Assembly: GCF_025215495.1 (NCBI RefSeq)
Contig: NZ_CP104302.1
Coordinates: forward strand, 3,844,001-3,908,000
From: Mycolicibacterium brumae
GTDB lineage: Bacteria; Actinomycetota; Actinomycetes; Mycobacteriales; Mycobacteriaceae
Direction of reading: 5' to 3'
DNA: 64,000 bases
Made by a program: the position numbers and the translations under genes. Below the pieces are notes generated by a model. That model saw only the letters and a program-made list of their open reading frames with translations, had not been told where the DNA came from and did not search any database. Positions within the stretch are counted from its first letter, which is position 1; the number at the start of each line of letters is the position of its first letter. This document shows positions 32,776 through 54,263 of this stretch, one piece after another.

Positions 32776-34656
32776 TCAGACGCGGCCGCCCAGGTGCTTG
32801 CCGAGGAACTCCGTGATGGCCGTCCAGATCGCCAGGGTGTTCTCCGGGTTGACCGCGCCGTGGCCCTCATCCGACTGGATCAGGTAGTCGACCTCCACGC
32901 CGCGCGCCCGCAGCGCCCGCACCAGATTGTCCGACTCGGCCTGCACGACGCGGACGTCATTGGCGCCCTGGATGACCAGCAGCGGAGTGCGGATCTGGTC
33001 GACCTGGGTGATCGGCGAACGCGCCATCATGTCGGCCAACTGCTCCGGATCGTCCGGGTCGCCCACGTAGAGATGCCAGTTGTTGGCCAGGTGCGGACGC
33101 GCGACAGCGGGCAGGGTCCGCATGAAGTTGGAGAGGTCGGAGATCCCGACATAGTCGACGGCGGCGGCGAACACATCCGGGGTGAAGGTGACCCCGACCA
33201 GCGCCGCGTATCCGCCGTAGGACCCGCCCAGGATCGCCACCCGCTCCGGGTCGGCCAAACCCCGGTCCACCGCCCAGCGCACCCCGTCGATCAGGTCGTC
33301 GTGCATCTTGCCGGCGAATTCACCAATGGCGGCCTTCATGAACGCCTTGCCGTAGCCCACCGAGCCGCGGAAGTTCACCTGCAGCACCGCGTATCCGCGG
33401 TTGGCCAGCACCTGGGCGCCAGCGTCGTAGATCCAGCTGTCCCGGAACCACGGGCCACCGTGCACCACCAGCACCAGCGGCAGCCCGGCGGGCTCCACCC
33501 CCGGCGGCAGGGTCAGATAGGAATGCAACTCCAAGCCGTCACGCGCGGTGATGGTCACCGGCTCCATCGGCGCGAGTTGCTCCGGATCCAGGTCGGGGTA
33601 CGGCCGGAACAGCAGCCGGTGCTCGCCGGTCTGATGGTCGTAGAGATAGGTCGCCCCAGGATCGCGATCGTGGACAAAGCCGACGATCCAGCGTCGGCCC
33701 TCTTCATCGGAGGAGATCCGGCCGATATCCCCGTCCGAGAGCTTCGCCAGGTTCTCCAGCACGTCCGCGAATCGCTCGTCGAGCGCGCGAATCACCTGTC
33801 GCTCACGCAGATAGCGCACACCCAGCAGGTCACCGGTGCGGCGGTCCTGAATCAGCGCCGCCGGGATGACAGGGCTGACCAGACCGCGTGGGTCGACGTC
33901 GAATTCCGGGTGGCTGTCCACCTCGGTTTCCACGCCGGTGCTCAGATCGATGTGCACGATCTGCGTCCGGTCGGTTCCCCGATAGGAACCCGCCCACAGG
34001 CCGGTTCCGTCCGGAGTGATCACCAGCGGATGGACGCCGGTCGGCCAGTCCGCGCCGTCGAACGTCACGATGGGGCGCAAAGCCCCTGTGCCGCTGTCGT
34101 ATTCGGATATCTCCAGGTTGCCGTCGTCGTTCAGCGCGGTGGCCAGCAGATCACCCTTGTCGCTGGACAACCAGCTGGTGATGTGGCCCGGGTTCTCGGC
34201 GAGGAGGGTGAGTTCGCCAGTCGGGATATCAAGCTCGTAGGCGTCCATCTGCGTCGGAATGCGCCTGTTCGTCAGAATGGTGGTCTTGCCGTTCTTGACA
34301 TCTCGCACCGGGACGGCCAAGGCGCCGGGGAAGGGCGTCAGATCGACCGCGCCCGCCTCGGGATCGTCCAGGTCGACGCGGAAAGCATGCCAGTTCTCAT
34401 CCCCGCCGGTGTCCTGCAGGTAGATCATCCAGCGCGGATCATCGGTCCAATCATAGTGGTGCACACTGCGATTCGCGTCCGCGGTCACACACCTAGGCGC
34501 CGGATTCTCGGCGTCGAGGTCTTCTACCCACAGGTTGAGGCGGTTACGCCAGGGGGCCAGGAACGCCATCCGGGTTCCGTCGGGCGAGATGCTCGCCATC
34601 GTGCGCTCCGGCGGACGGAAGAAGTCCTCGACGGCGATCAGGTCGGGCAATGCCAC
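32776..34656 (-). CDS. S9-family prolyl oligopeptidase-type peptidase
   Basis: 626 residues: an N-terminal beta-propeller (about 1-370; repeated xxSxDGxxxAFL-like blades) and a C-terminal alpha/beta hydrolase. Catalytic Ser479 is in LGGSYGGYAAL; the Asp is in IQGANDVRV and the His in EGHGAVNP. No signal peptide, so it is cytoplasmic and should cleave short peptides. It lies 36 bp after a TetR gene on the same strand and is probably under its control. Confidence 0.92.
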   Translation of the reverse strand: MALPDLIAVEDFFRPPERTMASISPDGTRMAFLAPWRNRLNLWVEDLDAENPAPRCVTADANRSVHHYDWTDDPRWMIYLQDTGGDENWHAFRVDLDDPEAGAVDLTPFPGALAVPVRDVKNGKTTILTNRRIPTQMDAYELDIPTGELTLLAENPGHITSWLSSDKGDLLATALNDDGNLEISEYDSGTGALRPIVTFDGADWPTGVHPLVITPDGTGLWAGSYRGTDRTQIVHIDLSTGVETEVDSHPEFDVDPRGLVSPVIPAALIQDRRTGDLLGVRYLRERQVIRALDERFADVLENLAKLSDGDIGRISSDEEGRRWIVGFVHDRDPGATYLYDHQTGEHRLLFRPYPDLDPEQLAPMEPVTITARDGLELHSYLTLPPGVEPAGLPLVLVVHGGPWFRDSWIYDAGAQVLANRGYAVLQVNFRGSVGYGKAFMKAAIGEFAGKMHDDLIDGVRWAVDRGLADPERVAILGGSYGGYAALVGVTFTPDVFAAAVDYVGISDLSNFMRTLPAVARPHLANNWHLYVGDPDDPEQLADMMARSPITQVDQIRTPLLVIQGANDVRVVQAESDNLVRALRARGVEVDYLIQSDEGHGAVNPENTLAIWTAITEFLGKHLGGRV

Positions 34657-42666: not shown

Positions 42667-43416
42667 TCAGCCGAAGGTGATCGAGGCCAACATCGCCCCG
42701 TCCCGGGTGACCAGGCTGTCCTTCTTCAACGTCGCGCCGAAGTACTTCGCGGTCGGGTCGACCACCACCCGCTGATCATCGTGGCTCAGCGACAGCACCT
42801 CTCGGGCCATCTGCGCGAAGGTGATCTTCTCCGGGCCGCCGACGTTGCTGACGTGATTGCGTGGCGGTGAGGCCACGACCTCGGCGAGGAAGGCCGCCAC
42901 CTCGTCGGCGGCGATCGGTTGGATCAGCGCGTCCGGCACCCGCACGTCGTGCACGTCGTCGACGTCGTCGTCGCTCTCAACGACCAGCGAGTCGATGATC
43001 GTCGGCGCGAATTCGTGGAACTGGGTCGCCCGCACGATGGTGTACGGCAGACCCGATTCCTCGATGAGTTCTTCCTGGGCGACCTTGGCCCGCATGTAGC
43101 CGCTGTCGGGGATCTGGTCGACGCCGACGATGGACAGCGCGACGTACTGGCTGACGCCGGCGGCGCGGGCCGCCTCGAGCAGGTTGGCGGTCCCCCGGGT
43201 GAAGAAGTACATCAGTTCGGCGTCGCCGTACCAGGGCGAGTCGGTGACGTCGACGAGCACGTCGGCGCCCGCCAGCGCCTTGGCCACGCCGGCGCCCGTG
43301 CAGATGTCGACACCGGAGCGCCGGGACGCCGCGACCACGTCCTCCCCCTCCCGGCGCAGCGTCTCGGTGAGAAGCGACCCGACGAGGCCGTGGGCTCCGA
43401 ACACCGTCACCTTCAC
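42667..43416 (-). CDS. NmrA-like/atypical SDR NAD(P)-binding oxidoreductase
   Basis: 249 residues from GTG 43416, which overlaps the upstream gene's stop as GTGA; the frame extends further upstream only as a shadow. N-terminal cofactor loop VFGAHGLVGSLL, then a Rossmann fold with ALSIVGVDQIP and SGYMRAKVAQEELIEESGLPYTIVR, typical of NmrA/NAD(P)H-binding proteins related to quinone or flavin reductases. Function may be reduction or redox sensing. Confidence 0.85.
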   Translation of the reverse strand: MKVTVFGAHGLVGSLLTETLRREGEDVVAASRRSGVDICTGAGVAKALAGADVLVDVTDSPWYGDAELMYFFTRGTANLLEAARAAGVSQYVALSIVGVDQIPDSGYMRAKVAQEELIEESGLPYTIVRATQFHEFAPTIIDSLVVESDDDVDDVHDVRVPDALIQPIAADEVAAFLAEVVASPPRNHVSNVGGPEKITFAQMAREVLSLSHDDQRVVVDPTAKYFGATLKKDSLVTRDGAMLASITFG

Positions 43417-44180
43417 TGTTCCGATCCCTTCACCCAGCGCGCCAGCATTTCGTTGGACCGCTCGGTGAGAGCGGCCTGCCACAGCGGCCCGAAACTGATC
43501 CGCCCGGCACCCGCGGCGGCCAGTTCGGCCAAGTCGCCGGTGGCCGGATGCGCGATCGCGTTGACCGGCAGCGGCAGCTCGTCGGTGAGCCGGCGCAGGG
43601 TGGCGTCGTCGTGGAATCCGACCGGGTACAGCGAATCCGCTCCCGCGTCGGCGCACAGTCGCAGTCGCGCGATCGCCCGGTCCACCCGATCGGCCTCGTC
43701 GCCGACCTTCTTGAGGATGACGTCGGTGCGGGCGTTGATCACCACGTGCACACCGGCGGCGTCGGAGGCCGCGCGCAGCGCAGCGATCACGTCGGCGTGC
43801 TCCTGCGGTTCACGCAGCCGGCCGTCCTCGGAGTGCACGGTGTCCTCGATGTTCAGACCCACCGCCCCGGCTTCGAGCAACCCGTCGATCAGCCGCTGCG
43901 CGAGCTGGCCGTAGCCGGATTCGATATCGACCGACACCGGAACCTGGGCCGCGGCGGTGATCTGCGCGACGCGCGTCATCGCCTCCTCGAAGGACATGCC
44001 TTCCCCGTCGGACCTGCCGATCGAATCAGCCATCGGGTGTGAGCCGACTGTGAGCGCGACGAACCCGGCGGCGACGGCGGTGTTCGCCGACCAGGCGTCC
44101 CAGGTGGTGGGCAGGACGACGGGGTCGCCCTTACGGTGCAGCGACTTCAGGGTGGTGGCCAGTTCTGTGAGGGAGGTCAT
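43413..44180 (-). CDS. Isocitrate lyase/PEP mutase-family protein
   Basis: 255 residues of the PEP mutase/isocitrate lyase superfamily (LPTTWDAWSANTAVAAGF, VPVSVDIESGYG with the Mg-binding Asp/Glu pair, INARTDV). Members cleave or rearrange C-C or C-P bonds of 2-hydroxy or phosphono acids; the KKCGH catalytic loop of isocitrate lyase is not present, so the activity is more like oxaloacetase or a 2-methylisocitrate-like lyase. First gene of the operon with the NmrA-like protein. Confidence 0.85.
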   Translation of the reverse strand: MTSLTELATTLKSLHRKGDPVVLPTTWDAWSANTAVAAGFVALTVGSHPMADSIGRSDGEGMSFEEAMTRVAQITAAAQVPVSVDIESGYGQLAQRLIDGLLEAGAVGLNIEDTVHSEDGRLREPQEHADVIAALRAASDAAGVHVVINARTDVILKKVGDEADRVDRAIARLRLCADAGADSLYPVGFHDDATLRRLTDELPLPVNAIAHPATGDLAELAAAGAGRISFGPLWQAALTERSNEMLARWVKGSEQ

Positions 44181-45102: not shown

Positions 45103-45525
45103 TCAGTTGATGATCTCGGCGCGCTCGTCCGCGAGCAGGTTTGTCAGCCGCTCCCGCCATTCCTGCAGTTGCTCGGGAGTCAGCCTCGTCCACTCGGTGA
45201 TCTCGGCCAGGACGCGCAACGGGGCGACGCTGCGGAATGACCGGGTCGGGTTGCCGGGGAACTTCTTATCGGTGACGTTCGGATCATCCTCGAATGCTCC
45301 GGTGGGCTCCACCTGATACACCCGTGGGACCGGGTCACCGTCGGCGAGTTCGGCGGCGATCTCCGCGGCCAGGCCCGCGCCATCGACACGCGCGGTGAAG
45401 TAGATGTGGTTCATCACGATCTCCGGGCGGTAGTTCGACGGGCGGCCCGCGGTGAGGAGTTCTCCCTCCCGCAGGTTGGCGATGGTGCCGTGGAAGAACG
45501 GTCCTGCCTCAAGCGCCTCGGACAT
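45103..45525 (-). CDS. arr: Rifampin ADP-ribosyltransferase
   Basis: 140 residues, the family length. The core FFHGTIANLREGE, NYRPEIVMNHIYFT and EDDPNVTDKKFPGNPTRS matches the conserved Arr sequence from M. smegmatis. Arr transfers ADP-ribose from NAD+ to the C23 hydroxyl of rifampin and inactivates it. No resistance cassette or integron surrounds it, so it is most likely a resident chromosomal gene, as in M. smegmatis. Confidence 0.92.
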   Translation of the reverse strand: MSEALEAGPFFHGTIANLREGELLTAGRPSNYRPEIVMNHIYFTARVDGAGLAAEIAAELADGDPVPRVYQVEPTGAFEDDPNVTDKKFPGNPTRSFRSVAPLRVLAEITEWTRLTPEQLQEWRERLTNLLADERAEIIN

Positions 45526-45640: not shown

Positions 45641-46648
45641 CTAGGAAATGCGCGGTGGAATCGCCAACGTGTCGCCCGCGACGTCGATCGCAACCTTGCC
45701 CCGCAGCGCATACTCCCGCCGGCACTCCAGGAGTTCATGCGCCTCGCCGATTCGTGCCAGCGGCAGGGTCGCGCCGATCACCGGCCGGACCAGACCACGC
45801 TCCACCAACGTGGTGAGCGCGTCCAGCTTTCCCCGGTTCTGCCGGGTGAACACGAAGTGATACGCCGCGTTCTTGCCCCACGCCTCGATGAGGTTCTGTG
45901 GCTGCGCGATATCGACGATGCTTACCACACGTCCGAAGTCGTTTAGCGCCAACGGACTTCGGGTCAGCGCGTCGCCGCCGATGGTGTCGAAGACGACGTC
46001 GACTCCCGCGCCTCTGGTCAGCTCGGCGACGGCGTGGACGTAGTCCGCCGAGGTGAAATCGATCGCAGCATCCGCCCCGAGCGTGCGCACGAACTCGTGG
46101 TCGCCGGACCTCGCGGTGGTGATGACGCGCGCGCCGACCGCCTTCGCGACTTGAATGGCGATGGCGCCGACTCCGCCCGCGCCGCCGTGGACGAGAATCG
46201 TCTCCCCCACGGCGAGTTGGGCTCTGGTCACCAGGGACTCCCACACGGTTCCGCCGACCAGTGTCAGGCTCGCGGCTTCCAGGTGGCTGAGGTTTTCCGG
46301 CTTCCGGCCGACGAGCTCGACGTCGGCGACGTGCTGCTCGGCGTAGGAGCCGGGGCCGCCGAAGATCCGCGGGGTGTAGTAGACGGCGTCACCGACGCCG
46401 AATTCAATGACGTCGGATCCGACTTCCTCGATCACACCGGAGATGTCGTGGCCGATGATCGCCGGGAGCGGCACCTGATCCGGGTAGTCCCCGCGGCGGA
46501 TCTGATAGTCGAGCGGGTTGATTGCGGTCGCGTGGACACGGACCCGCACCTGGCGGGGCCCGACGGGCGGCACGGCGACGTCACGCAATTCGAACGCGTC
46601 GGGGCCGCCGAACCGGGTCAGCACAACGGCTTTCATCGAATCGGTCAT
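45641..46648 (-). CDS. MDR-superfamily NADP-dependent quinone oxidoreductase
   Basis: 335 residues from ATG 46648 (GAGGAG nearby); the ORF extending to 46801 is a shadow of the regulator. Zinc-free MDR-type fold: [19 protein letters not shown] start and [23 protein letters not shown] nucleotide site. Such proteins reduce quinones or enoyl substrates with NAD(P)H. It follows the TetR gene by 31 bp on the same strand, probably its main target. Confidence 0.9.
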
Positions 46649-46679
46649 ATTGGCACTCCTCGTCGTTGCCCCTGTGCGC

Positions 46680-47258
46680 TTAACGCACGCCGCGGAACGC
46701 CAATTCCACGAGGGCGTCGATATGCCGCGGATCAACCGGTAGCGCATGCAGCAACCGGAACTCGACGAAGCCGTACAGCACGTCGGCCAGGGTCTCCACA
46801 TCGGCGTCGGCGCGGATCTCGTCGCGGTCCCTTGCCCGCGCCGCCCGGGCTACGAAGGCGCCGACGTTTGGCTCGATGATCCGGTCGAAGACGGCTTCCA
46901 GGAGCGTGTCGTCGGACTGGCCGGCGGCGATCACGCCCCGGTAGGCGGCCCCGAATCCAGTGTCCGCGATCCGCTCCACGATGCCCTTGAGTTGGGCGCG
47001 CACGTCGTCCAGGAAGTCCCCGGTGTCGGGGAGCAGGACCACCGGATCGAGGCTCCGGGTCGCCGCGTCGAGCACCACTGCGCCCTTGGACGGCCACCAG
47101 CGATAGATGGTCTGCTTGCCGACACCTGCCCGCCGGGCAATCGCCTCAATCGAGACGTTGGCGTAACCCACTTCGCCGATCAGCGAAACCGTGGCATCGA
47201 GGATGGCGTTGCGTGCGCATTCATTGCGCCGACGGGCGTCCGGAGGGGTTTCAGCCAT
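46680..47258 (-). CDS. TetR-family regulator between oxidoreductase and Rieske operon
   Basis: 192 residues. [49 protein letters not shown]; ligand domain of the TetR_C_16 style. It precedes the quinone oxidoreductase and is divergent from the Rieske-GltS gene, with a 17-bp palindrome in the 107-bp gap. It could repress both operons. Confidence 0.9.
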
Positions 47259-47304: not shown

Positions 47305-47321
47305 CGTCTCGTTGCGAGACG
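47305..47321. promoter_or_regulatory. Palindromic operator in the divergent TetR/Rieske promoter region
   Basis: CGTCTCGTTGCGAGACG has perfect 7-bp arms (CGTCTCG/CGAGACG) around TTG, midway between the TetR start (47258) and the Rieske-GltS start (47366). The preceding segment AAGACGAACCGGATCGTCTC contributes a second weaker dyad. Suits control of both directions by the TetR. Confidence 0.65.
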
Positions 47322-47365: not shown

Positions 47366-49015
47366 GTGAATCCGAATCTCACAACGACGACGGCCTCGGA
47401 AGCAGCGCCCGGCGTCAAGCTGGCCGACCTATCCGAGCTACCCGACAACACCCCGTTCGCCGTGACCGCCGCTGGAGCCGACCTCGTGCTTATCCGGCGC
47501 GGCCAGAAGGTGTCCGCGCTGTCCGGTCGGTGCGCGCACCGCGGCGCGCTGCTGGCCGACGGCCACATCGACGGCGACGTCGTGGTCTGCGGCGTGCACG
47601 GCTGGCGCTACGACGTGGACACCGGGGTGTCGCCGGTGAACCCGTCGGTCACGTTGCCGACGTTGCCGGTTCACGTCGTCGACGGCGTGGTCTCCACCGA
47701 CCGGTCCGCGCTCGCGGAGTTCACCCGCGCCCACCCGCAGACCCACGTCGACGACGGCTATCAGGGCCGGTGGGTCCGGCCCGCCGACACCGCGGAGGAG
47801 CCGTTCAACACCGCGATCCACGAGCTGGCCACGCACGGGCTGAGCAAGGTCGGCGAGCACGGACCCTCGGCGGCGATGGGCGTTTCACGCACCGAGTTGC
47901 CGTCCTGGGATTCGATCCAGCTGATCACCGCGCAGCTGGCGCGACTGCCGCTACTCGACGATGAACCGGTCGACACCCAGACGGTCATCGGGCCCGGGGC
48001 GCATCGTCCGCTGGTGCTCGACATCCCGATCTTCGTCAGCGATATGAGCTACGGAGCGTTGTCCGAGGAGGCCAAGATCGCGCTCGCCGCCGGGGCCGAG
48101 CTCGCCGGCGCCGGGATCTGTTCCGGGGAGGGCGGGATGCTTCCCGAAGAGCAGCAAGCGAATTCGCGGTACTTCTACGAACTGGCGTCGGGGCGCTTCG
48201 GCTGGAGCTTCGAGCACCTGCGCAAGGTGCAGGCGTTTCATTTCAAGGGCGGGCAGGGCGCCAAGACCGGCACCGGCGGACATCTCCCCGGATCAAAGGT
48301 GGTCGGCAAGATCGCGGAGGTGCGCGGATTGCCGCCGGGGACGTCGGCGATCTCACCCGCGCGTTTCACCGACCTGAGCACCCTGAACGATTTCCGGGAT
48401 TTCGCCGCGCAGGTGCGTGAGGTCTCCGGCGGGATCCCGGTGGGCTACAAGCTCAGCGCGCAGCACATTGAGCACGATCTCGACGCGGCCCTGGAGATCG
48501 GGGTCGACTACGTGATCCTCGACGGCCGTGGCGGTGGAACCGGTTCCGCGCCAACGATCTTCCGGGACAACATCTCCGTCCCGACCATTCCGGCGCTGGC
48601 TCGCGCCCGTCAACACCTGGACGCCCGCGGCAGCCGGATCACCCTCGCGGTCACCGGTGGGATCCGGACGCCGGCCGACATGGTGAAGGCCCTGGCCCTG
48701 GGCGCCGACGCGATCGGCGTCTCCAACGCCGCGATCCAGGCCATCGGCTGTGTCGCCATGCGCGCCTGCCACACCAACACCTGCCCGGTGGGCATCGCCA
48801 CCCAGGACCCGAAGCTGCGCGCCCGACTGCCCGTGCGATCGGCGGCGGACCGACTGAACCGCTACCTGCGCTCCACCGTGGACCTGATGACGGTGCTCGC
48901 CCGGGCCTGCGGACGCCGGCGCCTGGCCGACTTCACCCTCGACGACCTGACCACGTTCGACCGCGACTTCGCCTACCTCAGCGGGGTCCCCTACGCAGGA
49001 GTGCTCCCGCTATGA
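47366..49015 (+). CDS. Rieske [2Fe-2S] domain fused to FMN/3Fe-4S glutamate-synthase-like core
   Basis: 549 residues from GTG 47366 (the frame remains open upstream through the palindrome region but without support). Residues 1-115 are a Rieske ferredoxin-like domain with ligands Cys56, His58, Cys75 and His78 (CAHRGA / CGVHGW). Residues about 160-549 are the FMN-binding glutamate synthase domain: ISDMSYGALSEEAKIALA, GEGGMLPEEQQANSRYFYELASGRFGW, HFKGGQGAKTGTGGHLPG, and the [3Fe-4S] motif Cys462-x5-Cys468-x4-Cys473. No amidotransferase domain is present, so ammonia or another amine would be the donor. The ATGA overlap with the next gene implies co-translation. Function of the fusion is unknown. 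Confidence 0.9.
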   Translation: MNPNLTTTTASEAAPGVKLADLSELPDNTPFAVTAAGADLVLIRRGQKVSALSGRCAHRGALLADGHIDGDVVVCGVHGWRYDVDTGVSPVNPSVTLPTLPVHVVDGVVSTDRSALAEFTRAHPQTHVDDGYQGRWVRPADTAEEPFNTAIHELATHGLSKVGEHGPSAAMGVSRTELPSWDSIQLITAQLARLPLLDDEPVDTQTVIGPGAHRPLVLDIPIFVSDMSYGALSEEAKIALAAGAELAGAGICSGEGGMLPEEQQANSRYFYELASGRFGWSFEHLRKVQAFHFKGGQGAKTGTGGHLPGSKVVGKIAEVRGLPPGTSAISPARFTDLSTLNDFRDFAAQVREVSGGIPVGYKLSAQHIEHDLDAALEIGVDYVILDGRGGGTGSAPTIFRDNISVPTIPALARARQHLDARGSRITLAVTGGIRTPADMVKALALGADAIGVSNAAIQAIGCVAMRACHTNTCPVGIATQDPKLRARLPVRSAADRLNRYLRSTVDLMTVLARACGRRRLADFTLDDLTTFDRDFAYLSGVPYAGVLPL

Positions 49016-50982
49016 CCGCTGATAACCACACCGACGCATCGGCCCGGAAACTCCAGTGGCACAAGGCCGCCGAGCTCGATGAATTCGACGACGGCCAGGT
49101 GCGGTCATGTCCGGCCGGCCTCAAAACGGTGGCGTTGACCAAGCTCAACGGCGCCTACGGGGCCATCGACAACCGCTGCCCGCACCAGGGCGGGCCGCTC
49201 GGGCAGGGCACCCTGGAGAACGACAAGATCCGCTGCCCCTGGCACGGATTCGACTTCGACCCGTTCACCGGCGAGGCCGCCGGCGGCCCTGATTTCGACG
49301 TGCCGACCTACCCGGTGCAGGTCCGCGGCGACGGCGTCTACGTCGGGACACCGCCACCGGCGCCCGCGGCGCGCACCGTCAGCGACGTCCTGGCGGAGAC
49401 GATGACGAATTGGGGCCTCGACACGGTCTTCGGAATGGTCGGGCACTCCAACCTGGGACTCGCCGAGGCCATGCGCCGCGCCGAGAGCGCCGGGAAACTC
49501 CGGTTTTTCGGCATCCGGCACGAAGGCGCCGCCGCGTTCGCCGCAGCCGCCTACGGGAAACTGACCGGCCGACCGGCGGCCTGCTTCGGCATCGCGGGTC
49601 CCGGGTCGACAAATCTGCTGACCGGTCTCTACGACGCCAAGGCGGACCGAGCGCCGGTGCTGGCGCTGTCCGGCAACGTCGACTCGGCGGTGGCCGGCAA
49701 GGGCGCGTTCCAGGACATCGACCTGCTGGCGGCGTTCGCCGATGTCGCCGTCTACTCGGAGATGGTGCGCGCCGGCTCCGAGCACGCCGAGTTGATGACC
49801 CTGGCGCTCAAGCACGCCATCCTGGAACGCGGCGTCGCCCACCTCGTCGTGCCCGACGAGGTGCAGATCATCGAAGCCGCGGATCAGCGCGCCTCCGGCC
49901 CGGAGGGTCGGATGCCCGACCTGCGGATCTCGCCGCCTTCCGCTCCGCTTTCGGCCGCGCTGCAACGCATCGAAGCATCAATCCGCCCGGTCATCATCGT
50001 CGGCGCGGGCGCCAAGTTCGACATGGCGGACATCGTCACGCTGGCCGAGCGACTGCGCGCGCCGGTGCTCACCACATTCAAGGCCAAAGGACAGATCCCC
50101 GACGAGCACCCGCTGGCCTGTGGGGCGCTGGGCCGGTCCGGCACACCGGTGGCGTCCTGGATGATGAACAAAGCCGACCTGCTCATCGTGTTCGGCGCGT
50201 CCTTCTCCAACCACACCGGCATCTCGCCGTACAAGCCCGTCGTCCAGGTGGACTCGGATCCGCTGGCGCTGGGACGCTTTGCTCCGGTGGCGGTTCCGGT
50301 GCTGGGAGATGTCGGAGTGACCGTGTCGGCTCTGTTGGGTCGGTTGCGCACCCATCCCGCATTGGTCGACCAACGCCCGGAGGTCGCCGAGCGCTGGGCG
50401 GTGTGGCGATCGGAGAAATCACTTCGGGCGCAACGGAATCCGGCCGGGCGGATCGCCCCCGCGACGGTGTTCGCCGAACTCGGCCGTCTCGTGCCGGCCG
50501 ATGCCGTGCTCACTGTCGACGTCGGCAACCACGCCTACTCGTTCGGGCGCTACTTCGAGACCAAAGACCGCCAATCGGTGCTGATGTCGGGATACCTCGG
50601 ATCCATCGGCTTCGGGTTCCCGGCCGCGATGGGCGCGTGGGCGGCGGCCCCCGACCGGCCGGTCGTCGCGGTCACCGGCGACGGCGGCTTCGGTCAGTAC
50701 CTCGCCGACTTCACCACCGCGGTGAAGTACGACATGAACATCACTCACGTGCTGCTCAACAACGGTGAGCTCGGGAAGATCAGCCAGGAGCAACGCAGTT
50801 CGGAGTACGCGGTGTGGCAGACGTCGCTGCGCAATCCGGATTTCGCCGCGTTCGCGCGGGATTGCGGCGGGTACGGCCGCCAGGTCAGCGACGCCGCCGA
50901 GCTGAACGCGGCTGTCAGCGCGGCGCTCGACTATCCCGGGCCGGCGTTGGTCGAGATCCTCGTCGACCCGTCGTCGAACTGA
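49012..50982 (+). CDS. Rieske [2Fe-2S] domain fused to ThDP pyruvate-oxidase-like enzyme
   Basis: 656 residues. Residues 1-110 are again a Rieske domain with Cys56, His58, Cys75 and His78 (CPHQGG / CPWHGFDFD), the same positions as in the preceding protein. Residues about 120-656 are a three-domain ThDP enzyme: N-terminal PYR domain with catalytic Glu171 (RHEGAAAFAAAAYGKLTG), middle FAD/ADP-type domain, and PP domain with GDG at 556-558 followed after 24 residues by NN. Closest to pyruvate oxidase/PoxB and sulfoacetaldehyde- or acetolactate-type enzymes. It should decarboxylate a 2-oxo acid and pass electrons to the fused cluster, an inference not tested here. Confidence 0.9.
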   Translation: MTADNHTDASARKLQWHKAAELDEFDDGQVRSCPAGLKTVALTKLNGAYGAIDNRCPHQGGPLGQGTLENDKIRCPWHGFDFDPFTGEAAGGPDFDVPTYPVQVRGDGVYVGTPPPAPAARTVSDVLAETMTNWGLDTVFGMVGHSNLGLAEAMRRAESAGKLRFFGIRHEGAAAFAAAAYGKLTGRPAACFGIAGPGSTNLLTGLYDAKADRAPVLALSGNVDSAVAGKGAFQDIDLLAAFADVAVYSEMVRAGSEHAELMTLALKHAILERGVAHLVVPDEVQIIEAADQRASGPEGRMPDLRISPPSAPLSAALQRIEASIRPVIIVGAGAKFDMADIVTLAERLRAPVLTTFKAKGQIPDEHPLACGALGRSGTPVASWMMNKADLLIVFGASFSNHTGISPYKPVVQVDSDPLALGRFAPVAVPVLGDVGVTVSALLGRLRTHPALVDQRPEVAERWAVWRSEKSLRAQRNPAGRIAPATVFAELGRLVPADAVLTVDVGNHAYSFGRYFETKDRQSVLMSGYLGSIGFGFPAAMGAWAAAPDRPVVAVTGDGGFGQYLADFTTAVKYDMNITHVLLNNGELGKISQEQRSSEYAVWQTSLRNPDFAAFARDCGGYGRQVSDAAELNAAVSAALDYPGPALVEILVDPSSN

Positions 50983-52747: not shown

Positions 52748-53836
52748 TCAGCGGAACTGCGGGCGCCAACGTTCGCTTGTCCGGCCCGCCGCGTCGACGA
52801 CGGCGATCTCCGCCCACCGGTCGAACGCCGAGCAGGGATGCGAGATGCCCAGGTCGACGACGTCCCCGACTTCGAGCCCAGCGGCCTCGGTGAACACCAG
52901 GTGATGATCGAACAATCGCGTCGCGACGCCACGGGCGCCGAGCAGCACCGGAACTCCGGCGTCGTAGGGAAGTTCGCGTTTGCCCGCGCCGACGACGACG
53001 GTCCCCGGCTCCGGGGCGGAGAGGACGACGGTCCGCACACTCAGCGCCGGTCGCAACCCGGCCACCGGTGACACGTTGGCGTACGTGCCGTGATCGTGGG
53101 TGACGTAGCAGCCGGACCGCAGCACGACCAGCGCCTGGTCGCGGTCGCTCAGGCCGGCGAGCACATCGACGACCAGGTCGGGGAATGCTGATCCGCCCAT
53201 GCTGAAGATCGGGCGTTCGGTCTGCGTCTGCGCGCGGATCTGCTCGAACACTGCCACGGTCGCGCGGCAGTGCGCCCGCACCAGTTCTATCGTTTCGGTG
53301 TCGCGGCGATTGGGGCGGATGCCCTCGTAACCCGCCGCGCCGGCCAACAACAGTCCGGGCGTCGCGGCGCACAGCTCAGCGATTGGGAGTCCGAGCGCGA
53401 GTTCACGAATTCCGGTGCGGCCGTTGGCGGTTCCGACGTCCACCAGGACCCGCAGCGGGTTCTGGACACCGACCATCGCTGACCCGGCTGCCCGCACCCC
53501 CGCCACCGAATCGACCAGGCAGTACAGCTCCAGGTCGCCGATCGCGTTGAGCCACTGGGCAATAGTCTCCAGGTCACCGGGGTGAACGACTTGATTGGCG
53601 ATCAGGATTCGGCGCAGCCCCCAATCCAGTGCCACCCCTGCCTGGCGCACGGTGGCCACGGTGACGCCCCACGCCCCCGCCGCCAACTGGCGCTGGACGA
53701 TGGGCCGGGTCATGGTGGTCTTGATATGCGGGCAGAGTTCGACGCCGCGCTGCGCGCACCACTGCGCCATGACCGCGATGTTGTGTTCCAGCGCGGGGAG
53801 GTCGACCCGGAGTTCGGGAAGCGTGTCCTCTGCCAT
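52748..53836 (-). CDS. D-serine dehydratase/D-threonine aldolase-like PLP enzyme (fold-III)
   Basis: 362 residues from ATG 53836 (an ATG at 53860 would overlap the VapC end by 14 bases). Alanine-racemase-type N-terminal barrel with the PLP Lys39 in PHIKTTM; the C-terminal D-serine-dehydratase-like domain includes the zinc-binding HxC of LGISHPCSAFDRW. Family members either dehydrate D-serine to pyruvate and ammonia or split D-threonine to glycine and acetaldehyde. It follows the VapBC pair on the same strand. Confidence 0.88.
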   Translation of the reverse strand: MAEDTLPELRVDLPALEHNIAVMAQWCAQRGVELCPHIKTTMTRPIVQRQLAAGAWGVTVATVRQAGVALDWGLRRILIANQVVHPGDLETIAQWLNAIGDLELYCLVDSVAGVRAAGSAMVGVQNPLRVLVDVGTANGRTGIRELALGLPIAELCAATPGLLLAGAAGYEGIRPNRRDTETIELVRAHCRATVAVFEQIRAQTQTERPIFSMGGSAFPDLVVDVLAGLSDRDQALVVLRSGCYVTHDHGTYANVSPVAGLRPALSVRTVVLSAPEPGTVVVGAGKRELPYDAGVPVLLGARGVATRLFDHHLVFTEAAGLEVGDVVDLGISHPCSAFDRWAEIAVVDAAGRTSERWRPQFR

Positions 53837-53846
53837 AGGCGTGAAC

Positions 53847-54263
53847 CTATGACCCCTCAACCCAGGGGTTCAGCAACCGCACTCCCGTGCGGTGGAAGTC
53901 TCCGACGTTACGGGTGACGAGCACAAGATCATGCGCGATCGCTGTCGCCGCGATGAGGGCGTCCATCTCCGGCAACGGATCCGGGATGTGCAGCCGCGCG
54001 GCCGTGACCGCCGTCGGCTCATCCACAGGTAGCAGACGCCTGTCGAACATGGGGCGGACGTCTTCCTCGAGCCAAAGCCGCAAGGGTCGCGCACCCCTGG
54101 GGTCGGTGCGCTCCTTTCGCCGAACGCCCCGCTCGAGCTCCAATAGGGTGACGACGCTGATCGCCAGGTCGCCCACCTCCTGGCCTCGCAACCAGGACAT
54201 CAGCGCCGGCGACCGCTTCAGCCGGGCATCGCTGATGATGTTCGTGTCGAGAAGGAACCTCAC
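53847..54263 (-). CDS. VapC-type PIN-domain toxin
   Basis: 138 residues, the PIN family size. Acidic active-site residues Asp6 (LLDTNIISD), Glu42 (LLELERG), Asp101 (MDALIAATA) and Asp122 (NVGDFH) form the Mg-dependent RNase site. VapC toxins cut tRNA or mRNA when free of antitoxin. Start codon overlaps the antitoxin stop as ATGA. Confidence 0.92.
   Translation of the reverse strand: MRFLLDTNIISDARLKRSPALMSWLRGQEVGDLAISVVTLLELERGVRRKERTDPRGARPLRLWLEEDVRPMFDRRLLPVDEPTAVTAARLHIPDPLPEMDALIAATAIAHDLVLVTRNVGDFHRTGVRLLNPWVEGS

Follow-up and report, generated by a model that had tools for sequence, protein, structure and literature searches.

Adjacent Rieske fusions of a glutamate synthase core and a thiamine diphosphate enzyme in Mycolicibacterium brumae: putative dehydrogenases that may share an electron acceptor

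Two adjacent genes encoding Rieske fusions

The window analyzed here is a stretch of 64,000 nucleotides from Mycolicibacterium brumae (NCBI RefSeq assembly GCF_025215495.1, contig NZ_CP104302.1, positions 3,844,001 to 3,908,000 of the forward strand; all coordinates below are those of the window), in which two adjacent + strand genes each join an N-terminal Rieske domain to a different enzymatic core. The first, p1 (47366..49015, +; 549 aa, GTG start assumed), is a Rieske–glutamate-synthase-core fusion, and the second, p2 (49012..50982, +; 656 aa, ATG start), is a fusion of a Rieske domain to a thiamine diphosphate (ThDP) enzyme. A preliminary description of this DNA, made from the letters alone, had proposed two Rieske fusions overlapping as ATGA, and this is borne out both by the Pfam matches and by the coordinates, the p1 stop and the p2 start sharing 49012..49015 (+). 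For p1, GTG was chosen as the start, the open frame beginning further upstream with other starts possible; a catalogued version of the protein has 531 aa and its first Rieske ligand at residue 38.

In p1, the Rieske [2Fe-2S] domain covers residues 18-90 (47417..47635, +; PF00355, E 2.5e-16) and the flavin mononucleotide (FMN) core of the Glu_synthase family residues 208-513 (47987..48904, +; PF01645, E 3e-92), the other Pfam matches being weaker ones to FMN_dh, IMPDH, and Rieske_2 over these same parts. Within its 549 aa, Pfam recognizes neither a glutaminase domain nor a C-terminal beta-helix domain, and a CDGSH domain is likewise absent from the matches; neither protein matches a Pfam model for a catalytic mononuclear-iron domain of the Rieske oxygenase type. 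The Rieske ligands Cys56, His58, Cys75, and His78 (47531..47599, +) and the 3Fe-4S cysteines 462, 468, and 473 (C-x5-C-x4-C; 48749..48784, +) are present at the residue numbers first proposed, and both sets are kept in 80/80 p1 loci, a sample comprising the best 80 of 532 confirmed genome stretches. Among the listed relatives of p1 (for p1 and p2 alike, the best 120 of 8000 scored per search), the 3Fe-4S motif is found in 120/120 and the Rieske pattern in 117/120, two of the remaining three being shorter proteins of 488 aa. An 83% identical protein of Mycolicibacterium smegmatis MC2 155 is annotated as ferredoxin-dependent glutamate synthase. Four residues of the Synechocystis ferredoxin-dependent enzyme (1llw), Glu903, Gln969, Lys972, and Arg992, which we take to be its 2-oxoglutarate-binding residues, align with Glu255, Gln297, Lys300, and Arg320 of p1, and these are invariant in our alignments A1 and A3. 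The FMN core of p1 also holds Lys294, invariant in these alignments as well, and the position of 1llw Gln978 is occupied by His306.

The N-terminal domain of p2 is a Rieske domain of the dioxygenase-ferredoxin type (residues 15-101; 49054..49314, +; Pfam E 2.2e-15), with dioxygenase ferredoxins as its best solved relatives. It is followed by a ThDP enzyme part, with the TPP_enzyme N, M, and C domains spanning residues 122-649 (49375..50958, +; Pfam E 1.9e-32, 3.9e-31, and 1.1e-36, respectively). No solved sequence spans either p1 or p2 over its full length. The Rieske ligands of p2, again Cys56, His58, Cys75, and His78 (49177..49245, +), are present in 31/31 Rieske-ThDP rows of alignment A2, and the Rieske pattern in 119/119 listed relatives. 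A loss of the ligands in orthologs would, by the preliminary description, have told against a joint system, but they are conserved in the p2 relatives found at p1 loci as well (30/31); the exception, L073, reads in two frames, with its Rieske half outside the best aligned piece. The identical numbering of the ligands in p1 and p2 could be read as a sign of joint design, a reading that fails because the numbers depend on the start codon: the first ligand falls at positions 40-56 in eight other p1 homologues and at 44-60 in eight of p2, and what is common is the spacing C-x-H-x16-C-x2-H, seen in 19/19 p1 and p2 sequences checked, which is a usual one for Rieske domains.

The ThDP part of p2 keeps Glu171 and the Gln234 of an FQ motif, to which we ascribe ThDP-site roles. 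Two other positions set it apart from pyruvate oxidases, namely, His145 (49444..49446, +), where PoxB and a Bacillaceae pyruvate oxidase have Asp, and Lys589 (50776..50778, +), which aligns with Phe465 of PoxB and with Met in the Bacillaceae enzyme. Both are invariant in the 31/31 Rieske-ThDP rows of A2, and the His145 GHSN motif and the Lys589 motif each occur in 119/119 listed homologues. This invariance at positions where pyruvate oxidases have Asp and Phe/Met argues for an active site that would act on an acidic or otherwise unusual substrate rather than one for plain pyruvate oxidation. The C-terminus of p2 falls near PoxB residue 530 of 572, leaving it without the C-terminal extension of PoxB, a tail that is presumably membrane/quinone binding; we also assume that the nearest relatives of p2 bind FAD.

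Phyletic distribution and linkage of p1 and p2

A p2 relative is encoded in 31 of the 80 p1 loci (28 on the same strand and 3 divergent), including those of Mycobacterium, Acidimicrobiia, Roseibium, Parvularcula, Thiodiazotropha, and Planctomycetota, as well as Thermoanaerobaculia, Plesiocystis, Fulvivirga, Saprospiraceae, and Nitrospirales. In the flanks retrieved for the other 49 loci no p2 was found; 12 of these genomes have one elsewhere. Both genes are also found on three haloarchaeal plasmids, about 1.4 kb apart in Salinirubellus, 4 kb in Halorarius, and 17 kb in Halorubrum; in the same plasmid search, Haloferax larsenii has p2 and p1 was not found. Plasmid 1 of Mycobacteroides abscessus subsp. 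bolletii (L144) carries a Rieske-ThDP gene 56% identical to p2 and is not among the records listed by the p1 search of plasmids. That plasmid is typed as mobilizable, and its Rieske-ThDP gene has TetR, flavodoxin, and cation:proton antiporter genes as neighbors.

We quantified the association in genome samples. Among 396 actinomycetotal genomes (p1 core at E<=1e-100, p2 at E<=1e-140), the core is present in 12, eight with a Rieske domain (including one from a second lineage discussed below) and four with a rubredoxin-like segment; p2 is present in 11, and both in six, of which four have the two genes separated by about 1 kb or less. In a sample of 201 genomes from the family of the window, Rieske-p1 occurs in eight, p2 in four, and both in three. 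Among 299 pseudomonadotal genomes centered on G582 (Woeseiaceae; p2 at E<=1e-100), the core occurs in 41: 13 Rieske, 24 CDGSH, three rubredoxin, and one truncated (G902). The Rieske and CDGSH modules were typed by pattern; of the 13 Rieske cores, 10 are intact, one (G790) has an internal stop and was typed by eye from its linker, and two (G908 and G766) are fragments entered as Rieske from their match range. One core of the CDGSH type (L171) has CDASH as its second motif. All four p2-bearing genomes of this sample (4/299) have a Rieske-p1, and the 24 genomes of the CDGSH type yielded no p2.

With kinship ignored, Fisher's test gives p 6.6e-8 for co-occurrence in 395 Actinomycetota and 1.5e-6 in 298 Pseudomonadota, centre genomes excluded, and 3.1e-3 in the family sample. 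Thus, the co-occurrence of the two fusions goes far beyond chance, and the p1/p2 pairing is real and conserved. When genomes are divided by module, p2 is present in 10/21 of the Rieske type against 0/31 with CDGSH or rubredoxin(-like) modules (p 2.2e-5, centres included; 9/19 against 0/31, p 3.7e-5, with centres excluded and kinship ignored). Since p2 was found in none of the latter 31, the Rieske domain appears to be the common element of the link.

Apparent exchange of N-terminal modules on the glutamate synthase core

Related cores carry other redox modules at the place where p1 has its Rieske domain. Two relatives from Vibrio plasmids have two CDGSH stretches (PF09360) followed by a core 63% identical to that of p1 over about 404 residues, and the 3Fe-4S cysteine motif is present in 120/120 listed relatives of one of them (the best 120). 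The three pseudomonadotal cores with a rubredoxin domain match Pfam at E 8e-22 to 5e-42, one with two stretches. In four genomes from a single family of Actinomycetota, the N-terminus is instead a short rubredoxin-like segment with two CPxCG motifs, scoring 18-20 bits against a Pfam cut-off of 23 in three and matching no profile in the fourth. The rubredoxin and rubredoxin-like cores (L042-L045, L179-L181) are more distant, at 42-48% identity.

In a 72-row tree of the cores, the CDGSH type forms one clade (100/100) within the Rieske-GltS rows, the branches that place it there having support of 94/82 and 81/99, neither starred. In a 42-row tree the CDGSH rows again fall among the Rieske rows, and constraining the 31 main-type Rieske rows to one clade without CDGSH comes at a cost of 15.5 log units (p-AU 0.0038 in the approximately unbiased [AU] test), a test weakened by the fact that this group was defined with the first tree already in view. 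The nesting of the CDGSH clade together with the AU result indicates that at least one replacement of a Rieske by a CDGSH module probably took place inside the Rieske clade. A second, distant Rieske-GltS lineage (L012 and L041) falls outside the main Rieske/CDGSH group. In the L041 genome p2 lies about 1 kb from the p1 core and in the L012 genome on another contig; hence, two lineages of GltS cores co-occur with Rieske-ThDP proteins.

A third Rieske protein and other neighbors

A membrane protein combining a ferric-reductase-type heme domain with a Rieske domain of its own (Ferric_reduct+Rieske) is encoded no more than 3.3 kb from p1 at 17 of the 80 loci, and 10 of these 17 have p2 as well. 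Three pseudomonadotal genomes with p2 (L185, L186, and L187, out of four in the sample) have its gene placed between those of p1 and p2, with the three genes in one orientation. In a 51-row tree of Rieske domains, those of p2 form one clade that groups with the membrane-protein domains (95/98), apart from the p1 domains and four ferredoxins, the tree being a rough one of 113 columns with long branches, four outgroups, and an unsettled bootstrap. It gives no support to the idea that the Rieske domains of p1 and p2 share an origin, the p2 domain sitting with that of the membrane protein. The partner part of the heme-Rieske protein is either C-terminal or a separate gene product of about 250 aa (L129:2110-3918, L085:15066-15824, L187:7397-8161), with no Pfam match but Cys motifs common to the sequences inspected.

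Other recurrent neighbors of p1 in the 80 loci include DUF5996 (13), K+/H+ antiporter-like (9), EgtB (5), and EgtD (4) genes. In three metagenome-assembled genomes (MAGs), two of gammaproteobacterial symbionts and one of a Rhodospirillaceae bacterium (L110, L127, and L135), EgtB and an EgtD-like histidine-specific methyltransferase are clustered with Rieske-GltS. The haloarchaeal p1/p2 neighborhoods contain merA, DsrE, rhodanese, TauE/SafE, and redoxin genes, which are of redox and sulfur themes, and L129 has a glutathione-synthetase-like and a cysteine-dioxygenase-like gene nearby. For a broader view, neighbors of 110-900 aa, two per side, were collected from 76 of the 80 loci (four mycobacterial ones excluded); genes were called by a crude longest-open-reading-frame rule that retained some shadow frames (e.g., L119, L154). 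Of the resulting 249, 113, mostly the nearest on each side and chosen by hand so as largely to exclude members of families recognized before, were run against Pfam, and no family occurs in more than four (Ferric_reduct in four), no background rate being computed. With no dominant family among them, prediction of p1 function from its nearest neighbors was dropped.

Two possible dehydrogenases with a proposed common acceptor

Judging from these sequence features, we tentatively favor, at a little under an even chance, the view that p1 and p2 each act as a dehydrogenase and deliver electrons to one and the same Rieske-compatible acceptor, over a transfer from p2 to p1. The cofactors, substrates, electron direction, and partner that we infer are as follows. 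The p1 protein would act on a 2-oxo-acid/amino-acid (glutamate-like) substrate at its FMN and 3Fe-4S cluster, probably in the oxidizing direction. The p2 protein would carry out a ThDP-dependent (and probably FAD-dependent) decarboxylation/oxidation of a 2-oxo acid, with electrons passing to its Rieske cluster and not to quinone. The N-terminal Rieske domains of the two soluble proteins would hand electrons to the common acceptor, which in a fair share of the genomes may be the clustered heme-Rieske membrane protein. The two reactions could even form a series, with p1 converting an amino acid to a 2-oxo acid and p2 converting a 2-oxo acid to an acid and CO2.

The direction proposed for p1 is suggested by redox potentials. 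Rieske ferredoxins lie at about -150 mV and rubredoxins near 0 mV (together, -150 to 0 mV), and the glutamate/2-oxoglutarate couple lies at about -120 mV. Excerpts of PMC9737848 give mitoNEET, of the CDGSH type, a potential of about 0 mV, and those of PMC8097209 describe classical GltS as having clusters estimated at <= -360 mV that feed the 3Fe-4S cluster (-280 mV) and then FMN (-240 mV). Because the exchanged modules are all expected to be of high potential, electrons would leave the p1 core rather than enter it; this expectation, along with the presence of a membrane protein that also bears a Rieske domain, is why we favor a shared acceptor.

Several observations weigh against this view. 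The link between the genes is strong and non-obligate, each also occurring without the other: no p2 is detected at E<=1e-120 in 37 of the 80 p1 genomes, mostly MAGs, and 5 of the 11 actinomycetotal p2 genomes have no p1 core at E<=1e-100. The Ferric_reduct+Rieske protein is absent from the fetched flanks of 63 of the 80 p1 loci, some of these flanks being short, and was not seen in the fourth p2-bearing pseudomonadotal genome (L188); in M. brumae itself, Rieske matches fall only within p1 and p2, with no membrane part. The Rieske-domain tree that joins p2 to the membrane protein is rough, as noted, and p1 would work reductively if its donor were of low potential.

In the most probable alternative, p2 oxidizes a 2-oxo acid and passes electrons from Rieske to Rieske domain for a glutamate-type reductive amination with free ammonia by p1. 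Such a flow would be downhill and thermodynamically possible, oxidative decarboxylation being of very low potential, and it accords with the overlap of the genes in M. brumae, their strong co-occurrence, and the conserved 2-oxo-acid site of GltS in p1. The separate occurrence of the two fusions speaks against it, and related cores with CDGSH or rubredoxin modules sit in genomes without detected p2, while p1 itself is without a glutaminase domain; on balance, we consider it unlikely. An obligate p1-p2 pair is ruled out by the distribution across genomes, and the one joint machine first envisaged, with p2 as the reductant of p1, is unsupported given how often the fusions are apart (49 of the 80 loci, besides the genomes just counted) and the existence of the third, membrane Rieske protein.

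We find it quite improbable that p1 and p2 are instead stress-response enzymes with separate reactions and only their regulation in common, the Rieske domain serving mainly as a redox sensor or switch. The haloarchaeal gene company, the EgtB genes, and the L129 neighborhood described above would fit such a role, as would expression data from M. smegmatis. There, MSMEG_5594 and MSMEG_5593 are, from names and gene order, the likely orthologues of p1 and p2, respectively. Excerpts of PMC8866557 report that MSMEG_5593, 5594, and 5595 (annotated as pyruvate dehydrogenase, ferredoxin-dependent glutamate synthase, and MarR) are jointly down in an altRP mutant, and also in the wild type in ZRM, taken as zinc-replete medium. 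The placement of different electron-transfer folds at one position of related cores, however, fits electron transfer better, as does the membrane heme-type Rieske protein of some operons, and no family recurs in more than the four of 113 scanned neighbors. Least probable is that there is no net redox chemistry, with p1 catalyzing FMN-assisted amine exchange like N-methylglutamate synthase subunit C, p2 a carboligase, and the Rieske domains providing docking or stability: two listed p1 homologues are named methylamine-glutamate N-methyltransferase subunit C and acetolactate synthases are among the p2 relatives, but the Rieske ligands are retained without exception at the p1 loci and in the fully read p2 rows, which is unlikely for docking, and a Pfam search covering five genes of the window recognized neither an Mgs amidotransferase nor a GXGXG subunit beside p1.

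Returning to the shared-acceptor view, it can be extended into a wider picture that we offer as doubtful, though possible: a widespread, laterally spread bacterial and haloarchaeal redox module in which Rieske domains would wire cytosolic dehydrogenases of the p1 and p2 types to a membrane heme-Rieske protein, providing an NADH-independent respiratory entry for electrons from amino acids and 2-oxo acids, while the GltS chassis swaps Rieske for CDGSH or rubredoxin modules to fit another electron partner. If the shared-acceptor model is true, it would represent a new way to feed such electrons into the membrane.

Surroundings of the gene pair in the window

Divergent from p1 is a gene for a TetR-family regulator (46680..47258, -; PF00440 and PF16859). 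The intergenic region between them holds a candidate operator, CGTCTCG-TTG-CGAGACG (47305..47321, +), with its function inferred; it is a perfect 7-3-7 palindrome and the sole exact match in the window to a pattern picked by eye after the palindrome had been noticed, the only other match, at 34299, having two mismatches. Beside the TetR gene is a zinc-type quinone oxidoreductase-like gene (45641..46801, -; best NCBIfam match below the cut-off), whose listed start overlaps the TetR gene and whose true start is probably internal. Further out on the - strand are genes for an NAD(+)-rifampin ADP-ribosyltransferase (Arr; 45103-45525; 135.2 bits, cut-off 130) and a protein of the methylisocitrate-lyase/PEP-mutase superfamily (43413-44180; well under the family cut-offs). 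On the other side, 1.8 kb downstream of p2 and on the opposite strand, lies a gene for a 3-hydroxy-D-aspartate aldolase-type enzyme (52748-53860, -; BhcC match far under the cut-off), followed by one for a VapC-like PIN toxin (53847-54263, -; NCBIfam match under the cut-off).

Comparison with known systems

The preliminary description had found no described system to match the pair. For p1 this does not hold: excerpts of PMC3174974 define type 5 CISD as a fusion of CDGSH to the glutamate synthase FMN domain, a domain combination named also in those of PMC5859297, and p1 is, by sequence, the Rieske counterpart and thus a variant of this described fusion. Both place a [2Fe-2S] module N-terminal to a GltS FMN core of the same lineage; they differ in that type 5 CISD has tandem CDGSH motifs where p1 has a single Rieske domain (2 Cys, 2 His), and the 24 sampled genomes with the former have no p2. 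For p2 the claim stands within the open-licence literature searched, in which, as far as the texts were available, no description of Rieske-GltS, Rieske-ThDP, rubredoxin-GltS, or operons with three Rieske proteins was found. Excerpts of PMC8866557, PMC8281650, and PMC8525676, with data on M. smegmatis, list MSMEG_5593 or MSMEG_5594 and offer no mechanism, and those of PMC4881515 contain expression values for MSMEG_5594.

With the glutamate synthases (the alpha subunit of NADPH-GltS and the ferredoxin-dependent enzyme), p1 shares the FMN core, the 3Fe-4S cysteines, and the residues of the 2-oxo-acid site. Unlike p1, these have glutaminase, central, and C-terminal beta-helix domains, and they use a [4Fe-4S] subunit or ferredoxin where p1 carries its Rieske domain. 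The nearest other match to p1 in its own genome is a 1556-codon open frame, 36% identical over about 260 residues. With Escherichia coli PoxB, its best-scoring solved structure, and the Bacillaceae pyruvate oxidases, p2 shares the three-domain ThDP enzyme and the ThDP-site residues; it differs from PoxB in its N-terminal Rieske domain, its lack of the C-terminal extension, and the His145 and Lys589 substitutions. Among NCBIfam families, pyruvate oxidase ranks first and ubiquinone-dependent pyruvate dehydrogenase second, neither reaching its cut-off, and p2 is under the cut-off of all 25 families shown (of 60). The public names of the two proteins (glutamate synthase, pyruvate oxidase/dehydrogenase) therefore probably mislead, as neither has all the defining parts.

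The membrane protein encoded near p1 in 17 of the 80 loci has the same domain combination as the Ferric reductase domain–Rieske protein presented as model M4 in PMC3591440, the likeness being one of domains alone; the excerpts of that account draw no link to Rieske-GltS or Rieske-ThDP proteins. Since the Rieske counterparts of CDGSH-GltS often come with p2 or this membrane protein, the set of Rieske, CDGSH, and rubredoxin GltS cores may provide a handle on the role of CDGSH-GltS, a member of the mitoNEET family.

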